The position numbers and the translations under genes were made by a program. From assembly GCA_027484425.1 (NCBI GenBank), contig JAIXSZ010000056.1, forward strand, positions 1 to 64,000: DNA of 64,000 bases, in the 5' to 3' direction. The stretch is from Sphingobacteriales bacterium (GTDB taxonomy: Bacteria; Bacteroidota; Bacteroidia; Chitinophagales; Chitinophagaceae). This document shows, piece by piece, positions 2,933 to 38,929 of this stretch. The notes below the pieces were generated by a model. That model ran no database searches, was not told where the DNA came from, and saw nothing but the letters and a program-made list of their open reading frames with translations. Within the stretch, counting starts at the first letter, position 1. Every line of letters starts with the position of its first letter.

Positions 2933-4108
2933 ATGAAATCAGCCTATATAGTAGCCGGACTTCGCACCGCAGTTTGCAAATCTAAGCGTGGTGCCCTACG
3001 TTTTTATCGCCCCGATGACCTAGCTGTAGACGTAATCAAGGGTCTATTGGCATCCATACCCCAGCTCGACCCCGCACTGATAGATGATGTAATAGTAGGT
3101 AATGCAGTACCCGAAGCCGAACAAGGCCTGCAAGTAGGGCGCATAATCGCCAACAGAGCTGTGGGCGAATCTGCTCCAGGTTTCACCATCAACCGTTATT
3201 GCGGCTCCGGCCTCGAAGCTATTGCCATAGCCACTGCCAAAATTCAAAGCGGCATGGCACACTGCATCATAGCTGGCGGCACCGAAAGCATGAGCCTAGT
3301 TCCTACTGCAGGCTGGCGCACCATGCCCAATTACGAATATGCCAAAGAAAATGGCGACTACTACCTTAGCATGGGCCTTACCGCCGAGCAGGTAGCACAA
3401 GACTACAACGTATCTCGCACCGACCAAGATGCCTTTGCATTGCAGTCGCACCAGCGTGCCATCAATGCCATACAGCAGGGCTACTTCAAAGACGGCATCA
3501 TACCCATTACTGTAAAAGAAGTTTACCTCAACGACAACAACAAACGCACCGAACGCAGCCTAACAATAGACACCGACGAAGGCCCAAGGGCAGACACATC
3601 GGCAGAGGCTCTGGCTAAACTCCCAGCTGTTTTTGCCGAGGGTGGTAGTGTCACTGCTGGCAACTCTTCCCAAACTTCCGATGGTGCTGCGTTTACTATC
3701 GTGATGAGCGACGAACTAGCTAACAAACTTAATATCAATCCATTAGGTAGACTAGTATCATGTGCTAGTGCAGGTGTAGATCCAAGAGTCATGGGCATTG
3801 GCCCCATCAAAGCCGTACCCAAAGTACTGCAACAAGCAGGCATGACCCTCAGCGACATTGACCTCATAGAGCTCAACGAAGCCTTTGCCTCTCAGTCGCT
3901 GGCAGTCATTCGTACCCTCGGCTTAGACCCCGCCATCGTCAACATCAATGGTGGTGCCATAGCCCTCGGTCACCCATTAGGCTGCACGGGTGCCAAACTC
4001 ACCATACAGATACTCCACGACCTCAAACGCCTTCAAAAGAAATATGGCATCGTCACCGCCTGCATAGGCGGCGGCCAAGGTATAGCCGGCATTATAGAGC
4101 GTTTCTAA
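2933..4108 (+). CDS. Acetyl-CoA C-acyltransferase (thiolase)
   Basis: 391 aa from the ATG at 2933; an upstream GTG at 2900 would add 11 unlikely residues. A type II thiolase that cleaves 3-ketoacyl-CoA or condenses acyl-CoAs, as in the last step of fatty acid beta-oxidation. Visible hallmarks: nucleophile Cys90 in NRYCGSG, the GGAIALGHPLGCTGA loop with the catalytic His, and the second catalytic Cys in TACIGGGQGIA near the end. Length is typical. It stands without fadB-like or acyl-CoA dehydrogenase neighbours, so degradation versus biosynthetic thiolase cannot be settled. Codons are rich in C at the third position, as in the next two genes. Confidence 0.93.
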   Translation: MKSAYIVAGLRTAVCKSKRGALRFYRPDDLAVDVIKGLLASIPQLDPALIDDVIVGNAVPEAEQGLQVGRIIANRAVGESAPGFTINRYCGSGLEAIAIATAKIQSGMAHCIIAGGTESMSLVPTAGWRTMPNYEYAKENGDYYLSMGLTAEQVAQDYNVSRTDQDAFALQSHQRAINAIQQGYFKDGIIPITVKEVYLNDNNKRTERSLTIDTDEGPRADTSAEALAKLPAVFAEGGSVTAGNSSQTSDGAAFTIVMSDELANKLNINPLGRLVSCASAGVDPRVMGIGPIKAVPKVLQQAGMTLSDIDLIELNEAFASQSLAVIRTLGLDPAIVNINGGAIALGHPLGCTGAKLTIQILHDLKRLQKKYGIVTACIGGGQGIAGIIERF

Positions 4109-4146
4109 CGTCAATCCAAACCCAAAACAACTAACAATATTTATAA

Positions 4147-5652
4147 ATGACCAACAATCATCAATACAACCAATACACCTCCATACTCCAAAAAGCCGCC
4201 GACCTCAACAACGCCTCAGCCGTCCTCGGCTGGGACCAAGAAGTATACATGCCCGCAGGTGGTGCACACTTCAGGGGCAGACAGCTCGCTACCCTCGCCA
4301 CTATGGCGCACGAGCTGCTTACCAGCCCCGAGCTAGAGACACTACTCACCACCCTGCTTGCCGATGACACCCTCACCCCTACCCAGCGTGCCAACGTCAC
4401 CCGCAGCCACGAAGACTACACCAAAAACAAAAAACTACCCTCAGCCTTTGTAGAGCAGCTATCCACCCAAACCAGCGAATGTTTCAATGCTTGGATAGAC
4501 GCACGAGACAAAAACGATTTCTCAGTCTTTGCACCCTCGCTCACCAAGATGATAGCCCTCAAACGCCAGCAGGCAGACCTCTACGGCTACAGCGAACACC
4601 CCTACGATGCCCTGCTAGATGAGTACGAACCCGGTGCCACTGTCGCCATGCTCGATCGTATCTTCGATGGTGTAAAGGCGCAGCTACCACCCATACTCGC
4701 CAGCATACAGCAGGCACCTCAGGTCGACGATCTGTTTTTTCACCGCCACTACCCCAAAGCCCAGCAATGGGATTTTTCGGTAGATGTGCTCAAGGCTATG
4801 GGCTACGAACTCCACACCGGTAGGCAAGACTATTCCGTACACCCATTCACCACCTCATTTTCACCACAAGATGTCCGCATTACCACCCGGGTCGACGAGC
4901 ACAACTATGCCTCGCTACTCTGGAGCACCATACACGAGGGCGGCCATGCACTCTACGAGCAAGGCCTACCCGCTACCGAGTATGGCCTACCACTAGGCGC
5001 AGCAGCATCGCTAGGCATACACGAGTCGCAGTCGCGCCTCTGGGAAAACTGTGTGGGCAGAGGGCCACACTTCTGGCAGCAGTTCTACCACACCCTACAG
5101 TCTTACTTTCCGCAGCAGTTGGCAGATGTCTCTGCTCACGATTTCTTCAAAGCCTGCAACAAGGTCATTCCATCCCTCATTCGCACCGAGGCCGATGAAC
5201 TCACCTACCACTTTCACGTGCTCATCCGTTACGAGATCGAAAAAGCCCTTATAGATGGCTCGCTAGAAGTGCACGACCTACCTACCCGTTGGAACGAGCT
5301 ATACCAGCACTACCTCGGCATCACCCCGCCCGACCACCGCACCGGTGTGCTGCAAGACGTGCATTGGAGTCATGGCAGCCTCGGCTACTTCCCTACCTAC
5401 ACACTGGGCAGCTTCTATGCCGCACAGTTTTATGCTCAGGCAGTCACCGACATACCCGGGCTCGAGGACCAGATAGCTGCTGGCAACTTCCAGCACCTGC
5501 TCACCTGGCTGCGCACACACATTCATGCACATGGCCGCAGATATGTATCAGAGGAGCTCTGCGAGCTGGTCACTGGCAAGAAACTCGATACCCAGTGTTT
5601 CATCACCTACATCACCCACAAGTATCAGCAAGTCTATGGCATTACCCTATAG
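4147..5652 (+). CDS. M32 family metallocarboxypeptidase (Taq-type)
   Basis: 501 aa, the usual length of thermostable carboxypeptidase 1 (family M32). These cytoplasmic zinc enzymes remove C-terminal residues from peptides. The zinc motif HEGGH is at 263-267 (HExxH pattern), followed by IHESQSRLWEN with the third ligand region (H292, E293) and the family's C-terminal DVHWSHGSLGYFPTYTLG block. No signal peptide is visible. It begins 38 bases after the thiolase and shares its C-rich codon style; the two may be cotranscribed, though their functions are unrelated. Confidence 0.93.
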   Translation: MTNNHQYNQYTSILQKAADLNNASAVLGWDQEVYMPAGGAHFRGRQLATLATMAHELLTSPELETLLTTLLADDTLTPTQRANVTRSHEDYTKNKKLPSAFVEQLSTQTSECFNAWIDARDKNDFSVFAPSLTKMIALKRQQADLYGYSEHPYDALLDEYEPGATVAMLDRIFDGVKAQLPPILASIQQAPQVDDLFFHRHYPKAQQWDFSVDVLKAMGYELHTGRQDYSVHPFTTSFSPQDVRITTRVDEHNYASLLWSTIHEGGHALYEQGLPATEYGLPLGAAASLGIHESQSRLWENCVGRGPHFWQQFYHTLQSYFPQQLADVSAHDFFKACNKVIPSLIRTEADELTYHFHVLIRYEIEKALIDGSLEVHDLPTRWNELYQHYLGITPPDHRTGVLQDVHWSHGSLGYFPTYTLGSFYAAQFYAQAVTDIPGLEDQIAAGNFQHLLTWLRTHIHAHGRRYVSEELCELVTGKKLDTQCFITYITHKYQQVYGITL

Positions 5653-5743
5653 CTATCAACAACAGACGTAAGCCTTCGTATTTTGTTTTTTTGCCATTTA
5701 GATTTCTGATTTCCATTGCCCATTTCTTCATTATTTTGCGTCC

Positions 5744-7849
5744 ATGTACACTACAGCCCAACAAAAACAACTCTTCGATCAGGCAAAACACCTGCTTAGC
5801 ACACACGATACTTCTGCTCAGGCTATACCCCTCCTCAGAGAAGTCATCAACTATGCCGACTGGAAATACTATATCCAAAGCGAATCTGTCCTCTCAGATG
5901 CCGAGTACGATGGGCTGTACAAGCAACTCCGGCTGGCAGAAGACCAGCACCCGCACCTCATCACGCCCTCATCACCCACACAGCGGGTAGCCCATGGGCT
6001 CAGCGAGCGTTTCCCTGCCGTTAGTCACCTCGTGCCCATGCTCAGCCTCGACAATACTTACAATGCCGACGACCTCACCGACTGGGACCGCAAGTGCCGC
6101 GAACTGGCGCAGACCGATACCATCACCTATTGTGTAGAACCCAAGTACGATGGCGCCAGCATATCTATTGTCTACGATGCCGACCAGCTCACCCGTGGTG
6201 CCACCCGTGGCGACGGCGTTATGGGCGAAGACATCACCATCAATACCCGACAGATAAAGTCCATCCCACTCGCCGCACCCCTCAGCACCTATGGCATCAG
6301 CCAGCTCGAGGTCAGGGGCGAGGTAGTCATACACAAGCAGTTTTTCGAGGACTACAATAGGCAGCGCATTGCCGATGGACTGGCACCACTCGCCAATCCC
6401 CGCAACGCTGCCTCTGGCACCCTACGCATCCTCGACCCCTCCGAGATCCGCAAGCGTGGGCTCAATGCCATTCTCTATAGCATTAGCCACTACACCCTCG
6501 CACCCGATGCCCCACGCCCACAGGCACTCAGCACCCATTACGATTCGTTGCAGTGGCTCTACCAGCTCGGCTTCCCCGCTCCTGCACAGCAAATGAAGAT
6601 CTTCACCCATATAGACGAGGTCATACAATACTGTGCCGACTTCGAAGCCCAGCGCGATTCCCTGCCCTATGAGGTCGACGGACTGGTGATAAAAGTAAAC
6701 GACTACGCCCTCCAAGACAAAATGGGCATGACCTCGCACCACCCACGCTGGGCAGTGGCATACAAGTTCAAGGCTCGCCAGGCTACCAGCATCCTCCGCC
6801 GCGTCGATTTTCAGGTGGGCCGTGTAGGTGCCGTTACCCCCGTTGCCAAGATCGACCCTGTGCATATAGGTGGTGTCACCGTCAGCTCCGTATCCCTGTT
6901 CAATGAAGATGTGATCCGCGAAAAAGACCTCCGCATCGGCGACACAGTTATCGTAGAGCGCGCCGGCGACGTCATACCCTACATCGTTCGTTCCCTGCCC
7001 GATCTCCGCACCGGCACAGAGCTACCCATTGTCTTCCCTACCCACTGCCCTGCCTGTAGCAGCGCCCTCGAAAAAGTACAAGACGAAGCCGCTTGGCGCT
7101 GCATCAACATTAGCTGTCCGGTGCAGGTCGTAGAGCGCATCATACACTTTGCCAGCAAAGACGCCATGGATATCCGCAGCATGGGCAATGCCAATGTGCA
7201 AAAGTTTCACGACATGGGCCTCCTGCCCGATATACCCGGCATGTACCACATCCCTTGGCAGCAGGTAAAAGGTATGGATGGTTTTGGCGAAAAATCCATC
7301 ACCAACCTCATGCAGGCTATAGAGCAGTCTAAGACACAGCCACTCCACCGCCTCATATATGGGCTGGGCATAAGGCACGTAGGCGAAACCACCGCCAAAA
7401 CCCTCGCCTCAGCCGTAGCACACATCACCGATTTTTACAACTGGGACACCGAAAAACTAACCACCCTGCCCGATATAGGCCCCAAGGTAGCCACCGCAGT
7501 AGCCGACTTCTTTGCCCGCCCCCAAAACAGGCAGATGATAGACAAGCTCGATGCCGCCGGTGTCAACCTCATCAACGACCACCGCAGCCAGCCCACCACC
7601 GACGGAGCCCTTGCCGGTAAAACATTCCTATTCACCGGCACCCTCAGCCAGTTTAAGCGCTCCGATGCCGAGCAACTCGTAGAAGCCCGTGGCGGCACCC
7701 TGCTCAGTGGCGTCAGCTCCAAGCTCCACTACCTCGTAGTAGGCACCGATGCCGGCTCCAAACTCGAAAAAGCCAAAAAACTCGGTACAGTTAATATATT
7801 GACTGAGCAAGAATTTGTGGCATTGACGGGTATGATATCGGCCGAATAG
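5744..7849 (+). CDS. ligA: NAD+-dependent DNA ligase
   Basis: 701 aa. LigA seals nicks during replication and repair using NAD+. The N-terminal Ia domain is followed by the adenylation domain with nucleophile Lys134 in the KYDG motif (VEPKYDGAS). An OB fold, a Cys4 zinc finger (C435, C438, C453, C458), helix-hairpin-helix repeats (GLGIRHVGETTA) and a C-terminal BRCT domain (about 621-701, starting near GKTFLFTGTL) complete the standard architecture. The ATG at 5744 lies only 5 bases after TATTTTG, a near match to the -7 element, so the transcript may be almost leaderless. Nothing is missing. Confidence 0.97.
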   Translation: MYTTAQQKQLFDQAKHLLSTHDTSAQAIPLLREVINYADWKYYIQSESVLSDAEYDGLYKQLRLAEDQHPHLITPSSPTQRVAHGLSERFPAVSHLVPMLSLDNTYNADDLTDWDRKCRELAQTDTITYCVEPKYDGASISIVYDADQLTRGATRGDGVMGEDITINTRQIKSIPLAAPLSTYGISQLEVRGEVVIHKQFFEDYNRQRIADGLAPLANPRNAASGTLRILDPSEIRKRGLNAILYSISHYTLAPDAPRPQALSTHYDSLQWLYQLGFPAPAQQMKIFTHIDEVIQYCADFEAQRDSLPYEVDGLVIKVNDYALQDKMGMTSHHPRWAVAYKFKARQATSILRRVDFQVGRVGAVTPVAKIDPVHIGGVTVSSVSLFNEDVIREKDLRIGDTVIVERAGDVIPYIVRSLPDLRTGTELPIVFPTHCPACSSALEKVQDEAAWRCINISCPVQVVERIIHFASKDAMDIRSMGNANVQKFHDMGLLPDIPGMYHIPWQQVKGMDGFGEKSITNLMQAIEQSKTQPLHRLIYGLGIRHVGETTAKTLASAVAHITDFYNWDTEKLTTLPDIGPKVATAVADFFARPQNRQMIDKLDAAGVNLINDHRSQPTTDGALAGKTFLFTGTLSQFKRSDAEQLVEARGGTLLSGVSSKLHYLVVGTDAGSKLEKAKKLGTVNILTEQEFVALTGMISAE

Positions 7850-7870
7850 GTACTAAAAACTAAAAACCAA

Positions 7871-7950
7871 ATAACGCCTATCTACTAAATACTAACGACT
7901 ATATACTTAAATAACGACTATCTACTATATACTAACAACTATCTACTATT
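7871..7950. repeat. Two-copy 40-bp tandem repeat
   Basis: Two adjacent copies (7871-7910 and 7911-7950) match at 33 of 40 positions by direct comparison. Each unit contains CTATCTACTA and ATACTAAC and is itself internally repetitive at about 20 bp. It sits in the intergenic gap after ligA and does not encode a protein. Confidence 0.7.
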
Positions 7951-8061
7951 CGGTAGCCATCTGAGTAGCTACTTTCAGCGGGCTTTGTGTCACACTCTTG
8001 TACGGGCGGGGCAGTGAGGAGCTTTACCCACCAAACCCACGCCGCCCATAAGCAGATAATG

Positions 8062-31887: not shown

Positions 31888-33138
31888 TTGATACTGTACC
31901 AGATATTTTTGTGGCTTTTCAGATTGGGCGTCGGCATCAATTCCCTGTATACCCATAAATCTAAATTATGGATAGCTGGTAGAAAAAACTGGCGACTCCA
32001 GGTAGCTCAAAAACTAGCTGCAAACGAAAAAAGAATATGGATTCATTGTTCCTCATTAGGAGAGTTTGAGCAAGGACGACCATTGATAGAGTCGATAAAG
32101 AAAAAATACCCTGATTACAAAATAGTACTTACGTTTTTTTCACCTTCGGGATACGAACATTGTAAAAACTATACTACAGCCGATTACATTTTCTATCTAC
32201 CATTGGATGGCAAAAATGCTGCGAAAGACTTTGTGGCATTAATAAATCCCTCGCTGGTGTTGTTTGTGAAATATGAGTTTTGGCATTTTTATTTATCTGA
32301 AGTTAGTAGTAGAAATATCCCTTTGTTGTTGGTTTCTGCAGCTTTCCGCGATTCCCAAGCATTTTTTAAATGGCATGGTGGTTTTTTCAGGAATATGCTA
32401 GGCTACTTCACACAAATACATGTGCAGGACGATAAGTCTGCAAAGCTGCTTGACGGAATAGGGCTGAAGGAAAATGTCTTTGTGACTGGCGATACCAGGT
32501 ATGATAGGGTAACTGAGATAGCTACAAAACTGAGGTCATTACCAGAAATAGAACGATTTAAAGCAAACAATAAGATCATAATAGCAGGAAGCACATGGGC
32601 GACCGATGAACAAATCCTACATAACTTCTTGCCATCATTGCCCATAGGTTGGAAAATGATCATAGCGCCTCACGAAATTGACTCAACCCATATCAATCAA
32701 CTGGTAACATTGTTTGGCATTGACGCTGTTTTGTACTCAAGTTTTGTTGACAACAAAAACACAGGCGCAAAAGTGTTAGTTGTAGACAATATTGGTATGC
32801 TTTCTAGCTTGTATGCTTATGGCCATGTAGCCTATGTGGGTGGTGGATTTCTGAAAGGAGGCATTCACAACACTTTAGAGCCAGCTATTTTTGGATTGCC
32901 AATTGTTTTTGGACCTGTTTATAAAAAATTCACTGAAGCAGTATCAATGGTTGCTGAAGAAGTAGCATTTGCTGCAAATAATGAAACAGAGGCAATAACA
33001 ATTCTTAATAGTTTGGTCAATGATGAGCCAATGAGACATGTGATACAGCAGAAACTGAAGCATTTTATGGCTAGTAATACTGGTGCAGCAGACAGAATAC
33101 TTGCTAACGTTGAGAAGAATAGATGGCTTTCTCAATAA
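31888..33138 (+). CDS. waaA: 3-deoxy-D-manno-octulosonic acid (Kdo) transferase
   Basis: 416 aa GT-B glycosyltransferase that adds Kdo from CMP-Kdo to lipid IVA at the inner face of the cytoplasmic membrane. Family features: N-terminal membrane anchor (LYQIFLWLFRLGVGINSLY), WIHCSSLGEFEQGRPLI, the VLFVKYEFWHFYL block, and C-terminal YVGGGFLKGGIHNTLEPAI with PIVFGPVYKKF. No in-frame ATG is near the expected N-terminus, so the TTG at 31888 is the probable start. It stands 78 bases before kdnA, whose product modifies the same sugar. Confidence 0.94.
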   Translation: MILYQIFLWLFRLGVGINSLYTHKSKLWIAGRKNWRLQVAQKLAANEKRIWIHCSSLGEFEQGRPLIESIKKKYPDYKIVLTFFSPSGYEHCKNYTTADYIFYLPLDGKNAAKDFVALINPSLVLFVKYEFWHFYLSEVSSRNIPLLLVSAAFRDSQAFFKWHGGFFRNMLGYFTQIHVQDDKSAKLLDGIGLKENVFVTGDTRYDRVTEIATKLRSLPEIERFKANNKIIIAGSTWATDEQILHNFLPSLPIGWKMIIAPHEIDSTHINQLVTLFGIDAVLYSSFVDNKNTGAKVLVVDNIGMLSSLYAYGHVAYVGGGFLKGGIHNTLEPAIFGLPIVFGPVYKKFTEAVSMVAEEVAFAANNETEAITILNSLVNDEPMRHVIQQKLKHFMASNTGAADRILANVEKNRWLSQ

Positions 33139-33186
33139 TATACTCAGTAACGACTGTTATAACAATAGTTTATGCTACCCTATTAT

Positions 33187-33194
33187 TATCTTTG
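33187..33194 (+). promoter_or_regulatory. -7 promoter element of the kdnA-kdnB-kdsA group
   Basis: TATCTTTG, exact TAnnTTTG match, ends 21 bases before the kdnA ATG. The three following genes have gaps of 38 and 49 bases and no other clear -7 element, so they may be one operon. Confidence 0.7.
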
Positions 33195-33215
33195 CAGTCT
33201 TAAAATAATAATCTC

Positions 33216-34430
33216 ATGCCCGGAACAGAACTATTCGGAAACGAAGAACGTAAGGAAATAAATGACGTACTGGAAACAGGTATTCTGTTTCGCTATAACC
33301 ACGACCAGCAGCGTAATGGCATATGGAAAGCTAAGGACTTTGAAGCTGAAGTGTGTAAAATAACTGGTGCTAAATATGCACATGCTATGTCTAGTGGGTC
33401 TACGGCTATAGCTACTGCTCTTGCAGCTTCGGGCATAGGCACGGGCGACGAGGTTATAGTACCCCCATTTACCTACATTGCTACTGTAGAAGCAGTATTG
33501 TTTGTAGGCGCTATACCAGTTTTTGCAGAAATAGACGAAACACTTTGTTTAAGTGCAGCTGGCATCAAAAATGCAATCACCCCCAATACAAAAGCTATAT
33601 GCTTAGTGCACATGTGCGGTGGCATGGCAGATATGGACGGCATAATGGCCGTAGTAAAAGAACACAACCTGATATTGGTAGAAGATGCTGGTCAAGCATT
33701 TGCTGCTAGTTACAAGGGTACTGCAACAGGTTTGTTTGGTACCGCTGGTAGTTATTCGTTCGACTTTTTTAAGATAGCAACTGCTGGTGAAGGTGGAGTG
33801 CTGGTGACTAATGATGAAGCTGTTTACAAGCTAGCAGATTCTTACAGCGATCATGGTCATGACCATGTTGGTAGCAACCGTGGCATGGAACAGCATCCTA
33901 TATTGGGCTTCAACTACCGTATTAGCGAACTACATGCTGCTGTGGGTGTAGCTCAGACGCGTAAAGTGCCACACATACGCGAGGTGAACCGCAAACACAA
34001 ACAAATGATGGTAGACATACTCTCGCAAACCGAAGGGATATCTTTTGCGCATTTATGCGACCCTGCAGGCGACTCTGCTACTTTCCTAAATATACTGATG
34101 CCCGATACTGAAACCGCTGCACGTACGGTAGCAGAAATGAATAAAGCTGGCATTGGAGGTTTCAACTACTGGTATACTAACATGTACCATTTCATCAACC
34201 AATGGGATCATATCAAACACCTGAGGACAGCTTCAAAACTGCCAGTACAGGTTTTAGGCCATTCACAGGATTATACCAATCTTCATTTGCCCAAATCGCA
34301 GGAAGTAATAGGCAGACTCATTTCGTTTGGAGTACGATGCACATGGACAGAGGAAGAAGTAGCAACCCTGGCTGGCAGAATAGCTACATGTGCCAAAGCC
34401 GCCATGAGTGTGGAGCAAGCGACGGCATAA
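33216..34430 (+). CDS. kdnA: 8-amino-3,8-dideoxy-Kdo transaminase (KdnA)
   Basis: 404 aa DegT/DnrJ/EryC1/StrS-type PLP aminotransferase. The sequence aligns by eye along its length with Shewanella KdnA as I remember it: start MPGTELFG, then RYNHDQQRNG, GDEVIVPPFTYIATVEA, AEIDETLCLS, CLVHMCGGMADMD, SDHGHDHVGSNRG and the GFNYWYTNMYHF region. The PLP Lys186 is in SFDFFKIATAGEGG. KdnA transfers an amino group from glutamate to the C8 aldehyde made by KdnB, forming Kdo8N. The adjacent kdnB gene makes the assignment strong. Confidence 0.9.
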   Translation: MPGTELFGNEERKEINDVLETGILFRYNHDQQRNGIWKAKDFEAEVCKITGAKYAHAMSSGSTAIATALAASGIGTGDEVIVPPFTYIATVEAVLFVGAIPVFAEIDETLCLSAAGIKNAITPNTKAICLVHMCGGMADMDGIMAVVKEHNLILVEDAGQAFAASYKGTATGLFGTAGSYSFDFFKIATAGEGGVLVTNDEAVYKLADSYSDHGHDHVGSNRGMEQHPILGFNYRISELHAAVGVAQTRKVPHIREVNRKHKQMMVDILSQTEGISFAHLCDPAGDSATFLNILMPDTETAARTVAEMNKAGIGGFNYWYTNMYHFINQWDHIKHLRTASKLPVQVLGHSQDYTNLHLPKSQEVIGRLISFGVRCTWTEEEVATLAGRIATCAKAAMSVEQATA

Positions 34431-34468
34431 ATTTAAAAAAATATTAAGGCATTATAATCATCCATTGC

Positions 34469-35548
34469 ATGCACAAGAATTTCAAGAATATAGATAAAGT
34501 AGTTTTCGGCAGAGGGAGTTTTTCGATGCTGGAAAGCATACTGGAAGATAAACGCAATGAAAACGATCACTTCTTTCTGTATGTGGTAGACAACTACTTT
34601 AAAGGTAAAGATCTGGAACAGCGACTACCTGCTAAAAGTAATGACGTAGTGAGGTTTATAGATGTGGACCCACACGAACCTACGACTGACCAAATAGACA
34701 ACCTTAGAGATGAGGTGCTGAAAAATCATGGATTACCGGCAGGTGTAGTGGGTATAGGTGGTGGCAGCATAATGGATATCGCAAAGGCGGTATCACTTAT
34801 GTTTACAAATGAAGGTTCATCAACGTTATACCAAGGTCTGAACCTAATCAAAAAGCCAGGAATATATCACTTGGGCATACCTACAATATCTGGCACTGGT
34901 GCAGAGGTGTCTATGACAGCAGTACTGACAGGGCCAGAGAAAAAATTAGGACTCAAATGCGATTGGACAGTTTTCAACCAAGTGATACTTGATGCTGAAC
35001 TAACTAGTACTGTGCCTGTAGACAAATGGCTGTATACCGGTATGGATACTTATATTCATTGTATAGAATCTGAACAGGGCACACTTAATAATGCATACAG
35101 CCACGCTTATGCTGAGCAGGCACTAAAACTGTGTCGTGAAATTTATTTGGGCGAAAATGCTGGTCAATCACCCGAAAATGATGACAAACTTATGGTAGCC
35201 AGCATGATGGGTGGTCTCAGCCTTACTTACTCAGAGGTGGGTGTGTGCCATGCGCTATCTTACGGCCTGTCAAAAATACTAGGCGAAAAACATTGTTATG
35301 CCAATTGCCTAGCATTTCAGCATCTGGAGGACTATTATGGTGAAGGCGTAAGTGAACTAAAACAAATGCTCACCCGTCACAATGTAACATTACCCACTGG
35401 GCTGAGTAGAAGCTGGAGCAACGAACAAATAACAGCGATGGCTCATGTAGCCTACAATTTGCCACACATGTGGAACCATGCAATAGGTGCCGACTGGAAA
35501 GAAAAAATAACTATTGAGACTATAGAAGCATTGTACAGAAGAATGTAA
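34469..35548 (+). CDS. kdnB: Kdo 8-oxidase (KdnB), iron-containing alcohol dehydrogenase family
   Basis: 359 aa. KdnB oxidises the C8 hydroxyl of Kdo to an aldehyde for KdnA. The family fold is clear: start KNIDKVVFGRGSF, nucleotide loop GIGGGSIMDIAKAVS, TISGTGAEVSMTAVLTGPEK and metal ligands in the pattern DTYIH (Asp then His four later) and H-x13-H (CHALSYGL to EKHCYAN). The overall text resembles Shewanella KdnB strongly from memory. It follows kdnA by 38 bases and precedes kdsA by 49. Confidence 0.9.
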   Translation: MHKNFKNIDKVVFGRGSFSMLESILEDKRNENDHFFLYVVDNYFKGKDLEQRLPAKSNDVVRFIDVDPHEPTTDQIDNLRDEVLKNHGLPAGVVGIGGGSIMDIAKAVSLMFTNEGSSTLYQGLNLIKKPGIYHLGIPTISGTGAEVSMTAVLTGPEKKLGLKCDWTVFNQVILDAELTSTVPVDKWLYTGMDTYIHCIESEQGTLNNAYSHAYAEQALKLCREIYLGENAGQSPENDDKLMVASMMGGLSLTYSEVGVCHALSYGLSKILGEKHCYANCLAFQHLEDYYGEGVSELKQMLTRHNVTLPTGLSRSWSNEQITAMAHVAYNLPHMWNHAIGADWKEKITIETIEALYRRM

Positions 35549-35597
35549 AATGCTATTGTCATCAATACTCTAATTAGAAAAATAAAAAAATCATACA

Positions 35598-36431
35598 ATG
35601 AGCGTAAAAAAAGTAAATGTCGGCAATATAGTATGTGGTGCAGATGAGTTGTTTCTCATATCTGGTCCTTGTGTGATAGAGGACGAAATTATCATGATGA
35701 AAACTGCCGAAAAACTGAAAGAAGTAAGTGAGCGGCTGAATATTCCTATCATTTACAAATCTTCGTTTCTGAAAGACAATCGGAGTAGCCTAAGTTATTA
35801 TGATGGGCCTGGACTGGATAAAGGCTTGAAAATACTGGCTAAAGTAAAAGAGCAATTTGGCTTCACTTTACTTACAGACATTCATTACCCCGACCATGCA
35901 GCCCCTACTGCTGAAGTGTGTGATGTATTGCAGATACCTGCATACCTATGCATGCAGTCTGGTCTGATGGTTGCAGCCGCAAAAACTGGCAAAGTAGTGA
36001 ACATAAAACACGGGCAGTTTTTGGCACCAGACAATATGAAACACCCAGTTGCAAAGTGTGTAGCAGCCGGCAATAATAATATAATACTTACAGAGCGTGG
36101 ATACACTATGGGCTACAACGACCTGGTGGTAGACCCTCGTAGTTTTTATCATCTGAACCAGATTGGGTATCCAGTAGTATTTGATATCACCCACGCAATA
36201 CGTAAATATGGCATTCCTAGTGCCGATGCAAAAGGCGGTGCTAGAGAGTTCCTGCCCGTCCTTAGCAGATCTGGTGTGGCTGCTGGTGTAGATGGTATAT
36301 TTATAGAAACTCACCCCGACCCTGAAAAAGCACTTTGTGATGCAGCTAGCCAGCTTAGTGTATATGCATTGGAGGAGTTCTTGAAACCACTGATAGAATT
36401 ACACGCTATAGAAGTAAAATACAGAAACTAA
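35598..36431 (+). CDS. kdsA: 3-deoxy-8-phosphooctulonate synthase (KdsA), divergent
   Basis: 277 aa. KdsA condenses arabinose-5-phosphate with phosphoenolpyruvate to give Kdo-8-P. Cys in SGPCVIED marks the metal-dependent class (Asn in E. coli). KDNRSS, TDIHYPDHAAP, NIKHGQFLAP, TERGYTMGYNDLVVD and FIETHPDPEKAL are recognisable. It departs from the usual LCRQTD (here LCMQSG) and NVKKGQF (here NIKHGQF), so it is a divergent subtype. The position after kdnAB supports a role in Kdo supply. Confidence 0.88.
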   Translation: MSVKKVNVGNIVCGADELFLISGPCVIEDEIIMMKTAEKLKEVSERLNIPIIYKSSFLKDNRSSLSYYDGPGLDKGLKILAKVKEQFGFTLLTDIHYPDHAAPTAEVCDVLQIPAYLCMQSGLMVAAAKTGKVVNIKHGQFLAPDNMKHPVAKCVAAGNNNIILTERGYTMGYNDLVVDPRSFYHLNQIGYPVVFDITHAIRKYGIPSADAKGGAREFLPVLSRSGVAAGVDGIFIETHPDPEKALCDAASQLSVYALEEFLKPLIELHAIEVKYRN

Positions 36432-36507
36432 ATTCCTATAATCAAAAACCCTACAAGAGTTCTTTATACATTTAATAATTATTTAAAAATTCTTGCAAAA
36501 CATCTCT

Positions 36508-37731
36508 ATGAAAAAATTATTAGTAGTAGCCTCGTTGTTTTTAGCCACTCAAACTCAGGCTCAGAAGAAAACAACCTATTTCGAAAATGGGAAGAAGTCA
36601 TTTGAAGGAGATTTCTCATTTGGTTTATTGAATCAAAGCGTTCGGGATTTTTACAATTTTGATACAGCGTCAGATACCAGAAGGGCAAATAGTTTGAACA
36701 TGTCTTCTAGAGGTATGGACCGAGAAGCCCAACCTCAGAAGATTTATAATGGAAAATGCACGTTTTACTATGACAACGGGAAAGTGTCTTACAGTGGTGA
36801 ATACAGGCAAGGCATAAAAACCGGTTTATTCATTTACAACTATTATGATGGTAATAAAGAAGCAGAACTGAATTTTGAGAATGGAATGGCCGATGGTAAA
36901 TGGCAAGCCTGGCATAAAAACGGAAAAACAAGATTCGAGCAACAATATGTAGCTATTTCTGAAGCAGAGATAGATACCATGCTAGCTAAAAAAATGAGAG
37001 CCACTACCCCGCTAGCTGGATACTCATTGATGCAAACTCGAGGCAACATTCGAAATTTTGGCAATGATTCATTGCGTAAATTGCCAAATGGAGTTTTCAG
37101 CAAATTTATAGAGCTGGAAAACTCATTTTTCAAAAACTCACATTGGAATGGCGAGTTCACTTCCTATTATGAAAATGGCAAAAAATGTACCGAAATGCGC
37201 TATGCAAATGACGTGCGCACCGGTACATGGAAATATTGGAGTGCCGATGGTGAATTGTACGTGTCTTTAACTTTTACCGATGGTAAAATCACAGATGCAG
37301 TCAACAAGTTGCCAGCAGATATGCAACAAAACACACCAATGAGACCAGTAGATCGCCAACTACCAGGCTTCAAGGACAGACTAAATGATTCTACAAGAGG
37401 TAAATTGAGTGCTAACTCAGCAGCCAGACCTGACCAGCAGCCAACACCTGGTGTAGATGCAAGAAAACACATAGATGAGAACCTAAAATATCCTGAAGCA
37501 GCTCTTGCCAATAAAGTAATGGGCCCTGTACTTGTAAAGTTTACTGTGAATGAAGATGGCACAACAGCCGATCATGAAGTAGTAAAAGGGCTGGGATATG
37601 GCTGTGACGAAGAAGCTATAAGGGTGATAAAAAGTATGCCAGCATGGAAACCTGCAATGAAGGACGGCAAACCAACAAAAGGTTCTGCAAGTCTCCCAGT
37701 GTTTTTCAGACCGGCACCACCCAAAAAATAG
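36508..37731 (+). CDS. MORN-repeat protein with TonB C-terminal domain
   Basis: 407 aa from the ATG at 36508 (signal MKKLLVVASLFLATQTQAQ). The middle has MORN/YwqK-like repeats: KTTYFENGKKSFEGDF, CTFYYDNGKVSYSGEYRQG, AELNFENGMADGKWQAW and FTSYYENGKKCTEMRYANDV. Residues about 320-407 form a TonB C-terminal domain (KYPEAALANKVMGPVLVKF, then GCDEEAIRVIKSMPAWKPA). There is no N-terminal TonB membrane anchor and no Pro-rich spacer, so a classical energy-transducing role is doubtful; a periplasmic adaptor is more likely. Function is inferred only. Confidence 0.82.
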   Translation: MKKLLVVASLFLATQTQAQKKTTYFENGKKSFEGDFSFGLLNQSVRDFYNFDTASDTRRANSLNMSSRGMDREAQPQKIYNGKCTFYYDNGKVSYSGEYRQGIKTGLFIYNYYDGNKEAELNFENGMADGKWQAWHKNGKTRFEQQYVAISEAEIDTMLAKKMRATTPLAGYSLMQTRGNIRNFGNDSLRKLPNGVFSKFIELENSFFKNSHWNGEFTSYYENGKKCTEMRYANDVRTGTWKYWSADGELYVSLTFTDGKITDAVNKLPADMQQNTPMRPVDRQLPGFKDRLNDSTRGKLSANSAARPDQQPTPGVDARKHIDENLKYPEAALANKVMGPVLVKFTVNEDGTTADHEVVKGLGYGCDEEAIRVIKSMPAWKPAMKDGKPTKGSASLPVFFRPAPPKK

Positions 37732-37770: not shown

Positions 37771-38568
37771 ATGAGTTATAGCGGTCCAGATTTGCGAACA
37801 GTAAACGTTACTAGATATATCACCCCACTTAGGGAGGGTGGCTCTATGCCCGCTATCGCTGCTGCTGACGATGACTTCATGTATGTGCTTAAGTTCAGAG
37901 GTGCAGGTCAGGGAAGAAAAGCATTGATAGCAGAGCTCATAGGAGGCGAAATAGCTCGTGCTTTAGGTTTGCGCATGCCTGAAATAGTATTTGCAACACT
38001 CGACGAGGCATTTGGGCGCACCGAACCCGATGAAGAAATACAAGACTTACTAAAGGCGAGCGTGGGTCTAAACCTAGCTATTCACTACTTATCCGGTGCC
38101 ATTACATTCGACCCAACAGTAACTAAGGTAGATGCCATAGAAGCATCAAAAATTGTTTGGCTAGATTGTTTGTTGATGAATGTAGACCGAACTTGTCGTA
38201 ATACAAATATGTTGCTGTGGAACAAAGAATTGTGGCTAATAGATCACGGTGCCTCTCTCTACTTTCATCACTTATGGCAAAACTGGGCTGAAAAAGCATC
38301 GTTGCCTTTTTCGCATATAAAGGACCATGTATTGTTGCCACAAGCATCTGAACTTTCTTCGATAGATAAAGATTTTTCTGTAATCTTAACAAACGAACTA
38401 ATTCTTAAGATTGTGATGCTCATACCAGATGATTGGTTATCAGACGATTCGCCATTCGCATCTGTAGAAGAGCACCGACAAGCATACTATCAGTTTCTCA
38501 CTACAAGAGTAGCGCATTCTCCAACCTTTGTAAAAGCTGCACAAGATGCCAGAACTGCACTTATTTGA
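37771..38568 (+). CDS. HipA-like kinase-fold protein
   Basis: 265 aa. A small member of the HipA/PI3-4-kinase-like fold. A beta-3 Lys lies in YVLKFRG (K41) followed by a helix with Glu (ALIAELIGGEIARALGL). The catalytic loop is MNVDRTCRNTNML (D139, N144) and the metal-binding motif is LIDHGASLYF (D158), all as in HipA-like kinases. The HipA N-subdomain and a HipB partner are absent. Its last 23 bases overlap the DUF3037 gene, a pairing that suggests a common function. Substrate unknown. Confidence 0.8.
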   Translation: MSYSGPDLRTVNVTRYITPLREGGSMPAIAAADDDFMYVLKFRGAGQGRKALIAELIGGEIARALGLRMPEIVFATLDEAFGRTEPDEEIQDLLKASVGLNLAIHYLSGAITFDPTVTKVDAIEASKIVWLDCLLMNVDRTCRNTNMLLWNKELWLIDHGASLYFHHLWQNWAEKASLPFSHIKDHVLLPQASELSSIDKDFSVILTNELILKIVMLIPDDWLSDDSPFASVEEHRQAYYQFLTTRVAHSPTFVKAAQDARTALI

Positions 38569-38929
38569 GTATGCCGTGCTTCGCATTGTACCTAGGGTGG
38601 AACGTGAAGAATTTCTCAATGTCGGGGTTGTGTTGTATTGTAGGCAAGGGCGTTTTCTGAAAGTAAAATACTTACTAGATGCCAACAAAATAACCGCATT
38701 TGCGCCTCAACTAGACTTAGCCGAGATCACTGCATATCTCCATGCTTTTGATCGTATCTGTCAGGCAAAACCAGATAGTGGGCCTATTGGCAAACTACCT
38801 GTAGCTGAGCGTTTCCGCTGGCTTACCGCTACGCGTAGTACTGTCGTACAGTCCTCGAAGGTACACCCTGGATTGTGTAATACGCCCGACGATACGCTGG
38901 AAAAAATCTATACGCAAATGGTGCTTTAG
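38546..38929 (+). CDS. DUF3037 family protein
   Basis: 127 aa. Start ELHLFEYAVLRIVPRVEREE with the following FLNVGVVLYC is the hallmark of DUF3037, a family with no assigned activity. The C-terminal part has FRWLTATRSTVVQSSKVHPG and ends with CNTPDDTLEKIYTQMV, also typical. It begins 23 bases inside the HipA-like kinase gene, so the two are translationally coupled. A strong hairpin terminator follows at 38974. Confidence 0.85.
   Translation: MPELHLFEYAVLRIVPRVEREEFLNVGVVLYCRQGRFLKVKYLLDANKITAFAPQLDLAEITAYLHAFDRICQAKPDSGPIGKLPVAERFRWLTATRSTVVQSSKVHPGLCNTPDDTLEKIYTQMVL

Follow-up and report, generated by a model that had tools for sequence, protein, structure and literature searches.

Predicted 8-amino-Kdo genes in a Chitinophagaceae genome and a transaldolase/CBS fusion that may stand in for KdsD

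In this work we have analysed a 64,000-nucleotide stretch of DNA (the window) from contig JAIXSZ010000056.1 of a Sphingobacteriales bacterium of the family Chitinophagaceae (Bacteroidota), in which four consecutive genes, waaA, kdnA, kdnB and kdsA, very probably belong to the pathway that attaches 3-deoxy-D-manno-octulosonic acid (Kdo) to lipid A and make its 8-amino form, Kdo8N. Such a module had been proposed from the sequence of the window (the original prediction), and it is supported because KdnA and KdnB are orthologous to the enzymes of Shewanella oneidensis, their catalytic residues are invariant, their genes occur together across genomes and both are linked to Kdo genes. What has to be changed is the idea that lipid A is decorated with amino-Kdo; by analogy with Shewanella we infer the reactions and, with them, that Kdo8N would replace the Kdo which forms the link to lipid A. 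The most novel element of the analysis is a possible supply of Kdo without KdsD, for which a transaldolase/CBS fusion protein is our candidate.

Results

Identity of the four genes

The nearest solved structure to the KdnA of the window is 5k8b, KdnA of S. oneidensis (E 2.1e-132, 445 bits; 48.9% identity over 395 amino acids, aa), and the second-ranking family member among solved structures follows at E 9e-47 and 163 bits. For KdnB it is 5k8c, KdnB of S. oneidensis (E 1.6e-124, 419 bits; 52.5% identity over 358 aa), with 3rf7 second at 6.1e-121 and the best structure of another kind at E 1.6e-22 and 83 bits. The gap to the rest of each family is thus about 280 bits for KdnA and about 335 bits for KdnB. 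Bit scores, identity and tree position agree that the first protein is an orthologue of S. oneidensis KdnA as opposed to other DegT enzymes and that the second is an orthologue of S. oneidensis KdnB, and the two stand together with Kdo pathway genes. The long and specific matches on which the original prediction relied are therefore real and lie far ahead of generic DegT or iron-containing alcohol dehydrogenase (Fe-ADH) proteins, and both motifs that it named were recovered, SDHGHDHVGSNRG at residues 211-223 of KdnA and H261-x13-H275 in KdnB. Lys186, the lysine that binds pyridoxal phosphate (PLP), is present in S. oneidensis KdnA and in 99/99 unique clade sequences, that of the window included. 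The same holds for D193, H197, H261 and H275 of KdnB, which we take from the Fe-ADH family to be the metal ligands: they are kept in S. oneidensis and, the window again included, in 121/121 unique clade sequences, a count drawn from 126 unique KdnB strings of which two are possibly one gene.

The two outer genes encode more familiar proteins. KdsA is canonical, scoring above the cut-offs of both NF003543 (340 vs 242 bits) and TIGR01362 (328 vs 314), and WaaA matches PF04413 with 154.5 bits (cut-off 23.9), being the only match to this family found in the source genome (4.58 Mb in 95 contigs). The order waaA-kdnA-kdnB-kdsA, as predicted, is borne out by four open frames on one strand (Table 1), separated by gaps of 77 bp (waaA/kdnA), 38 bp (kdnA/kdnB) and 49 bp (kdnB/kdsA). 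No terminator-like sites were found between the four genes in a scan which also gave 28 promoter-like sites in comparison with 17.2 (standard deviation 4.1) in shuffles; it uses sigma-70 patterns, a poor fit for Bacteroidota, and was set aside as evidence. The kdsB gene, correctly said to lie outside the window, was found as a single copy elsewhere in the assembly, on contig G000:C72.

Table 1. Coordinates of the four-gene module in the window
Gene	Product	Position	Strand	Length	Match
waaA	Kdo transferase, Kdo or Kdo8N to lipid A precursor (predicted)	31888..33138	+	416 aa	PF04413
kdnA	predicted PLP-dependent aminotransferase that converts 8-oxo-Kdo to Kdo8N	33216..34430	+	404 aa	5k8b
kdnB	metal-dependent Kdo 8-oxidase (predicted)	34469..35548	+	359 aa	5k8c
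kdsA	Kdo-8-phosphate synthase	35598..36431	+	277 aa	NF003543, TIGR01362

Distribution and lineages of kdnA and kdnB

The pair had been pointed out in a single Bacteroidota genome; it is indeed there, but it is no oddity of one genome. At E 1e-40, KdnB was matched in 31 of 392 genomes of the phylum sample (27/179 genera). Within the family of the source organism the matches number 190 in 294 genomes (74/101 genera), only part of these 190 being placed in trees. Twenty-six of the family matches are at least 75% identical to the KdnB of the window, and the remaining matches listed reach at most 52%. KdnA at E 1e-60 was detected in 30 of the 31 KdnB-positive genomes and in none of the 20 KdnB-negative genomes listed in the phylum search. 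Twenty-eight of the 31 fall within the KdnA and KdnB clades of our trees and all 28 hold both genes, which lie no more than 1.7 kb apart in 10 of them and at least 25 kb apart or on separate contigs in 18. Since the two genes occur together even where they are unlinked, they appear to serve one pathway.

The trees divide kdnAB into two lineages, a Shewanella-like type B and a type A to which the window belongs. In the KdnB tree (51 rows) clade A has a support of 100/99, and S. oneidensis joins clade B with 95/81; in the KdnA tree (42 rows) the support of clade A is 100/100 and the placement of S. oneidensis with B is not settled. Identity to S. oneidensis KdnB is 46-55% in clade A and 54-59% in clade B.

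Three genomes, G118, G145 and G169, were left out of the count of 28. G118 carries a KdnB homologue one gene from kdsB (L030/L046) that has lost two ligands (H197Q, H261R); KdnA has no match in this genome, and the homologue looks like a decayed or repurposed copy. G145 and G169 were dropped because the KdnA matches of both, and the KdnB of G169, are remote outgroups; the KdnB of G145, which stands in no tree, was left aside as 39% identical and congeneric with G169. The distant KdnB-like oxidases of G169 and G145 (41% and 39% identity; L031, L047, L051) lie at most four genes from a NeuB-family gene and perhaps, by analogy, oxidise a nonulosonic acid. No match to KdnB at E 1e-30 was found in the plasmid collection. 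Viral contigs of up to 99 kb (IMG/VR, L251-L253) hold three distant KdnB-like Fe-ADH proteins with 36-37% identity; L251, the one placed in the tree, lies outside the KdnB group.

Gene neighbourhoods and KdsB

We compared the best 80 of 549 relatives as type-A loci, of which 79 have a kdnB frame (L125, where none was called, was dropped). All are titled Bacteroidota except one, titled 'bacterium' (L177), and they include Runella defluvii, Spirosoma validum and Chryseolinea serpens. In the DNA fetched around these 79 kdnB genes, where many contigs are short, we found KdnA in 56, KdsA in 37, a KdsC-like protein in 21, KdsB in 17 and WaaA in 10. This comparison of related neighbourhoods, suggested as a check of the original prediction, thus shows linkage to waaA, kdsA, kdsC-like and kdsB genes and supports a Kdo8N module. 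Among 12 type-B loci, 10 have KdsB no more than four genes from kdnB, and in 3 the two are direct neighbours. One genome of another family, G249, has the order kdnA-kdnB-kdsA-kdsC-kdsB.

A KdsB tree (79 rows, made by a quick method with Shimodaira-Hasegawa-like approximate likelihood ratio support only) places the KdsB of 19 type-A genomes in a single clade (96) with no type-B or KdnAB-less row inside, and two of its members, from G190 and G249, come from another family. KdsB of G146 and G366 stands outside this clade, G616 and G643 carry both the type-A kind and the usual kind of their family, and G465 has the usual kind only. This pattern suggests movement of the type-A genes between Bacteroidota as a cassette.

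Shewanella KdsB is reported to prefer Kdo8N. As a marker of Kdo8N use we considered the change of Gln in the KdsB motif LEQLR to Cys, Ala or Pro. It occurs in 21/21 type-B genomes with a KdsB row, where the motif is of the IECLR type, but also in 10/31 KdnAB-less rows, and in 0/22 primary type-A KdsB. On the KdsB tree there are two changes among the type-B and KdnAB-less rows, and four independent phylogenetic pairs gave no support, so the change does not track KdnAB and was rejected as a marker.

Absence of KdsD and the transaldolase/CBS fusion

No KdsD over the TIGR00393 cut-off was found in the source genome; its two matches cover CBS positions only. A gene on the other contig that also carries kdsB encodes a fusion of 337 aa (G000:C72:40019-41029; L256:2020-3033), in which a domain of the transaldolase/fructose-6-phosphate aldolase (FSA) family is joined to a KdsD-like CBS pair. 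It has no SIS isomerase domain and aligns to TIGR00393 only at profile positions 136-267, with 68 bits vs a cut-off of 203.7. The fusion adjoins a kdsC-like gene and kdsB, the latter lying behind both. The KdsC-like phosphatase (L256:3143-3865) is very divergent, with no Pfam match at E 0.001 and 62 bits vs the KdsC equivalog cut-off of 208; with 50.7 bits vs a cut-off of 106.95, and the next match in the genome at 22 bits, it is nevertheless by far the best KdsC candidate of this genome, judged by sequence.

The distribution of the fusion is complementary to that of KdsD. In 79 genomes chosen by hand, and so non-randomly, from the phylum and family KdnB searches, KdsD over the cut-off was present in 57 and a full-length fusion in 24: 21 have the fusion without KdsD, three have both (G465, G506, G616), one has neither (G041) and 54 have KdsD only. 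The fusion is therefore found in 21/22 KdsD-less and 3/57 KdsD-bearing genomes (Fisher p 5.7e-15, with kinship ignored). Nine contrasts controlled for kinship, from seven genera and two families, gave a swap of KdsD for the fusion in seven, both genes in two and the reverse in none, one partner (G501) being 85% complete. The phylum sample contains the fusion in 7/392 genomes, none of them with KdsD at E 1e-40; within the class of the source organism, none of the 98 genomes with KdsD has the fusion, and six of the seven without KdsD have it. We found 38 fusion loci among 90 scanned, and at most four frames away from the fusion, in the same orientation, there is KdsA in 35, a KdsC-like protein in 29 and KdsB in 18; KdnB is near in 29, a count biased by the fact that 80 of the 90 loci had been fetched around kdnB. 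We also considered whether the fusion belongs to the Kdo8N pathway itself and rejected this, as G292, G388 and G411 have kdsA-fusion-kdsC-like without a KdnB match and G249 has kdnAB together with KdsD and no fusion.

The active site of the fusion is both conserved and altered. Sixty frames were counted; several are additional or truncated readings of one gene, which leaves 50 distinct genes, and the denominators here are the genes with a letter at the position. The Schiff-base lysine K86 is kept in 48/48, the phosphate-site residues R135 and R169 as well as S167 in 50/50 each, and D6 and E57 in 47/47 each. The Asn28, Thr110 and Phe132 of transaldolase/FSA proteins, found in 15/15 stand-alone relatives and in Bacillus subtilis 3r8r, are replaced by Thr28 (47/47), His110 (50/50) and Leu132 (50/50). 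FSA itself has Tyr at position 132. Judging by the titles of Protein Data Bank entries, K86, E60 and F132 of the Thermoplasma acidophilum transaldolase have been the subject of study. An AlphaFold2 model built from 12 sequences (predicted local distance difference test score, pLDDT, 85.3; predicted template modelling score, pTM, 0.58) leaves the relative placement of the domains uncertain; its barrel matches transaldolases, with a best E of 1.5e-20, and the 50 matches listed all belong to the transaldolase family.

Other features of the window

The annotated genes flanking the module are mostly housekeeping genes (28 frames of the window were searched), and one tRNA is the sole Rfam match. Directly 3' of kdsA, at 36493-37731, lies a gene for a protein with MORN-type repeats and a TonB C-terminal domain, followed at 37771-38929 by a HipA_2-like kinase gene that overlaps a DUF3037 gene by 23 bp and resembles a two-gene unit with it. 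The block 4001-8000, with genes for an M32 carboxypeptidase and a DNA ligase, has a GC content of 0.54 vs 0.34-0.44 in the remaining 4-kb blocks; at 7851-7947 there is a 40-bp tandem repeat, and an AT-rich block follows.

Discussion

How could the enzymes work together? In the order of steps which we take over from Shewanella, KdsA would join arabinose-5-phosphate and phosphoenolpyruvate to Kdo-8-phosphate, from which the divergent KdsC-like phosphatase of the other contig would release Kdo. KdnB would oxidise the C8 hydroxyl of Kdo to an aldehyde and KdnA would transaminate the 8-oxo-Kdo to Kdo8N, which KdsB would activate to the cytidine monophosphate derivative, CMP-Kdo8N, and WaaA would put onto the lipid A precursor. 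As a sole waaA and a sole kdsB were found in the genome, both enzymes would need to accept Kdo8N. An altered sensitivity to antibiotics or phages may be extrapolated from Shewanella.

Some results weigh against this. WaaA stays under the NCBIfam equivalog cut-offs (best 187 vs 438 bits), KdnA is missing from the fetched DNA in 23/79 type-A loci, we found no residue in the KdsB alignment or tree that tracks KdnAB, and we found no report of Kdo8N or of LPS (lipopolysaccharide) chemistry for Bacteroidota with kdnAB in the open-access literature. Could the pair be simply a generic DegT aminotransferase and an Fe-ADH paralogue with an unrelated role? Both families are large and have many functions, and neither KdnA nor KdnB reaches an NCBIfam cut-off or has a Kdn model among its matches; set against the bit gaps, the co-occurrence of the two genes and their Kdo-gene context, we find this hardly credible. 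It is improbable too, if a little less so, that KdnA and KdnB act on another ulosonic acid, such as a nonulosonic acid or the Kdo of a capsule or O-antigen, in place of the Kdo linked to lipid A. The distant KdnB-like genes of G169 and G145 in the neighbourhood of a NeuB-family gene would fit such a role, and a table on Leptospira lists a 'kdnB' with neuA genes (PMC8510873, in the part that holds this table). Yet the KdnA matches of these two genomes and the KdnB of G169 are long-branch outgroups, the proteins of the window fall into the same set as those of Shewanella, their gene neighbours are waaA and kdsA, and the genome offers one kdsB and one waaA.

An alternative that overlaps with the formation of Kdo8N, so that the likelihoods of the two are not exclusive, deserves more weight, though we still consider it unlikely: only part of the LPS may carry Kdo8N, or its amino group may be modified further, for example by acylation, with a net effect on charge unlike that in Shewanella. 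KdsB of the source genome retains LEQLR, as do most KdsB of KdnAB-less genomes, and may activate plain Kdo too; on the other side, the eight genes between 31399 and 38929 include no recognisable enzyme that would modify the amino group. Synthesis of Kdo8N for the lipid A link, from the genes of the module together with those on the other contig, thus remains our preferred explanation.

As to the start of the pathway, we lean, by a narrow preference, to the view that the fusion is a non-orthologous replacement of KdsD that makes D-arabinose-5-phosphate by Schiff-base chemistry and moves within Bacteroidota, often with the amino-Kdo cassette. This view is built on the way in which fusion and KdsD complement each other across genomes, on the linkage of the fusion to Kdo genes, on its domains and on its residues. 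According to the portion of PMC9947464 available to us, arabinose-5-phosphate is a product of E. coli FsaA acting on glycolaldehyde and glyceraldehyde-3-phosphate, with TalB F178Y as an alternative catalyst that gives ribose-5-phosphate too. Because of this chemistry, a re-tooled transaldolase could feed KdsA. In an aldol route the fusion would add glycolaldehyde to glyceraldehyde-3-phosphate, yielding arabinose-5-phosphate; alternatively, it might epimerise ribose-5-phosphate at C2 via an enamine, with His110 as acid/base. Against the replacement of KdsD by the fusion stand the doubtful supply of glycolaldehyde for the aldol route, the 110 of 385 fusion-less phylum genomes that also lack KdsD, a state common beyond the class of the source organism, and the four chosen genomes that have both proteins (G465, G506, G616) or neither (G041). 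Among the papers listed in our open-access literature searches, none named a transaldolase/CBS fusion of this kind. If the fusion does make arabinose-5-phosphate, there would be a second route to the first Kdo precursor, and a pathway under study for antibiotics would gain a new enzyme type.

The linking sugar between lipid A and the core is one of the best conserved components of LPS. The close relatives of the genes described here suggest that many Bacteroidota have the ability to make Kdo8N, and if most genomes of the family do so, a large environmental group would carry a positive charge at the lipid A link, a charge which would bear on the stability of the outer membrane, on cationic peptides and on lipid A recognition. 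The KdnAB enzymes are known, and their spread through a family of Bacteroidota is, as far as searches of the open-access literature show, undescribed; nor did these searches return a report on LPS and Kdo in Chitinophagaceae, or one of Kdo8N among the listed papers on core structures of the Flavobacterium type.

Comparison with known systems

The closest known system is the Kdo8N pathway of S. oneidensis. Gattis and others reportedly described it in 2013, with expression in E. coli, a deletion sensitive to polymyxin and bile, and a preference of KdsB, and Zachman-Brockmeyer and others are said to have worked on KdnA and KdnB of the same species in 2016. The sections we could consult of three papers call Kdo8N a hallmark of Shewanella and give 44.8 ppm for an amine-type C8 signal in the 13C NMR of a Shewanella (PMC6357163), treat it as a linking unit in Shewanella LPS (PMC3210612) and list S. 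oneidensis KdnB as the member of its Fe-ADH group that has been characterised (PMC5125639). Both enzymes are orthologous to those of the window and share their catalytic residues, and here Kdo pathway genes are their neighbours. The system described here differs in its host, a member of the Bacteroidota, in belonging to the sister lineage, clade A, in the adjoining waaA and kdsA genes and in having no KdsD over the cut-off. The type-B kdnAB of other Bacteroidota resemble the window in that each of the 22 type-B genomes in the trees has both genes, but there kdnA is often distant, KdsB is near kdnB and of the IECLR type, and KdsD exceeds the cut-off in 21/21 genomes tested. With KdsD and GutQ (TIGR00393), the fusion has in common the C-terminal CBS pair (67 bits), and it is found among Kdo genes; unlike them, it carries a barrel of the transaldolase family with an altered active site in place of the SIS isomerase domain.

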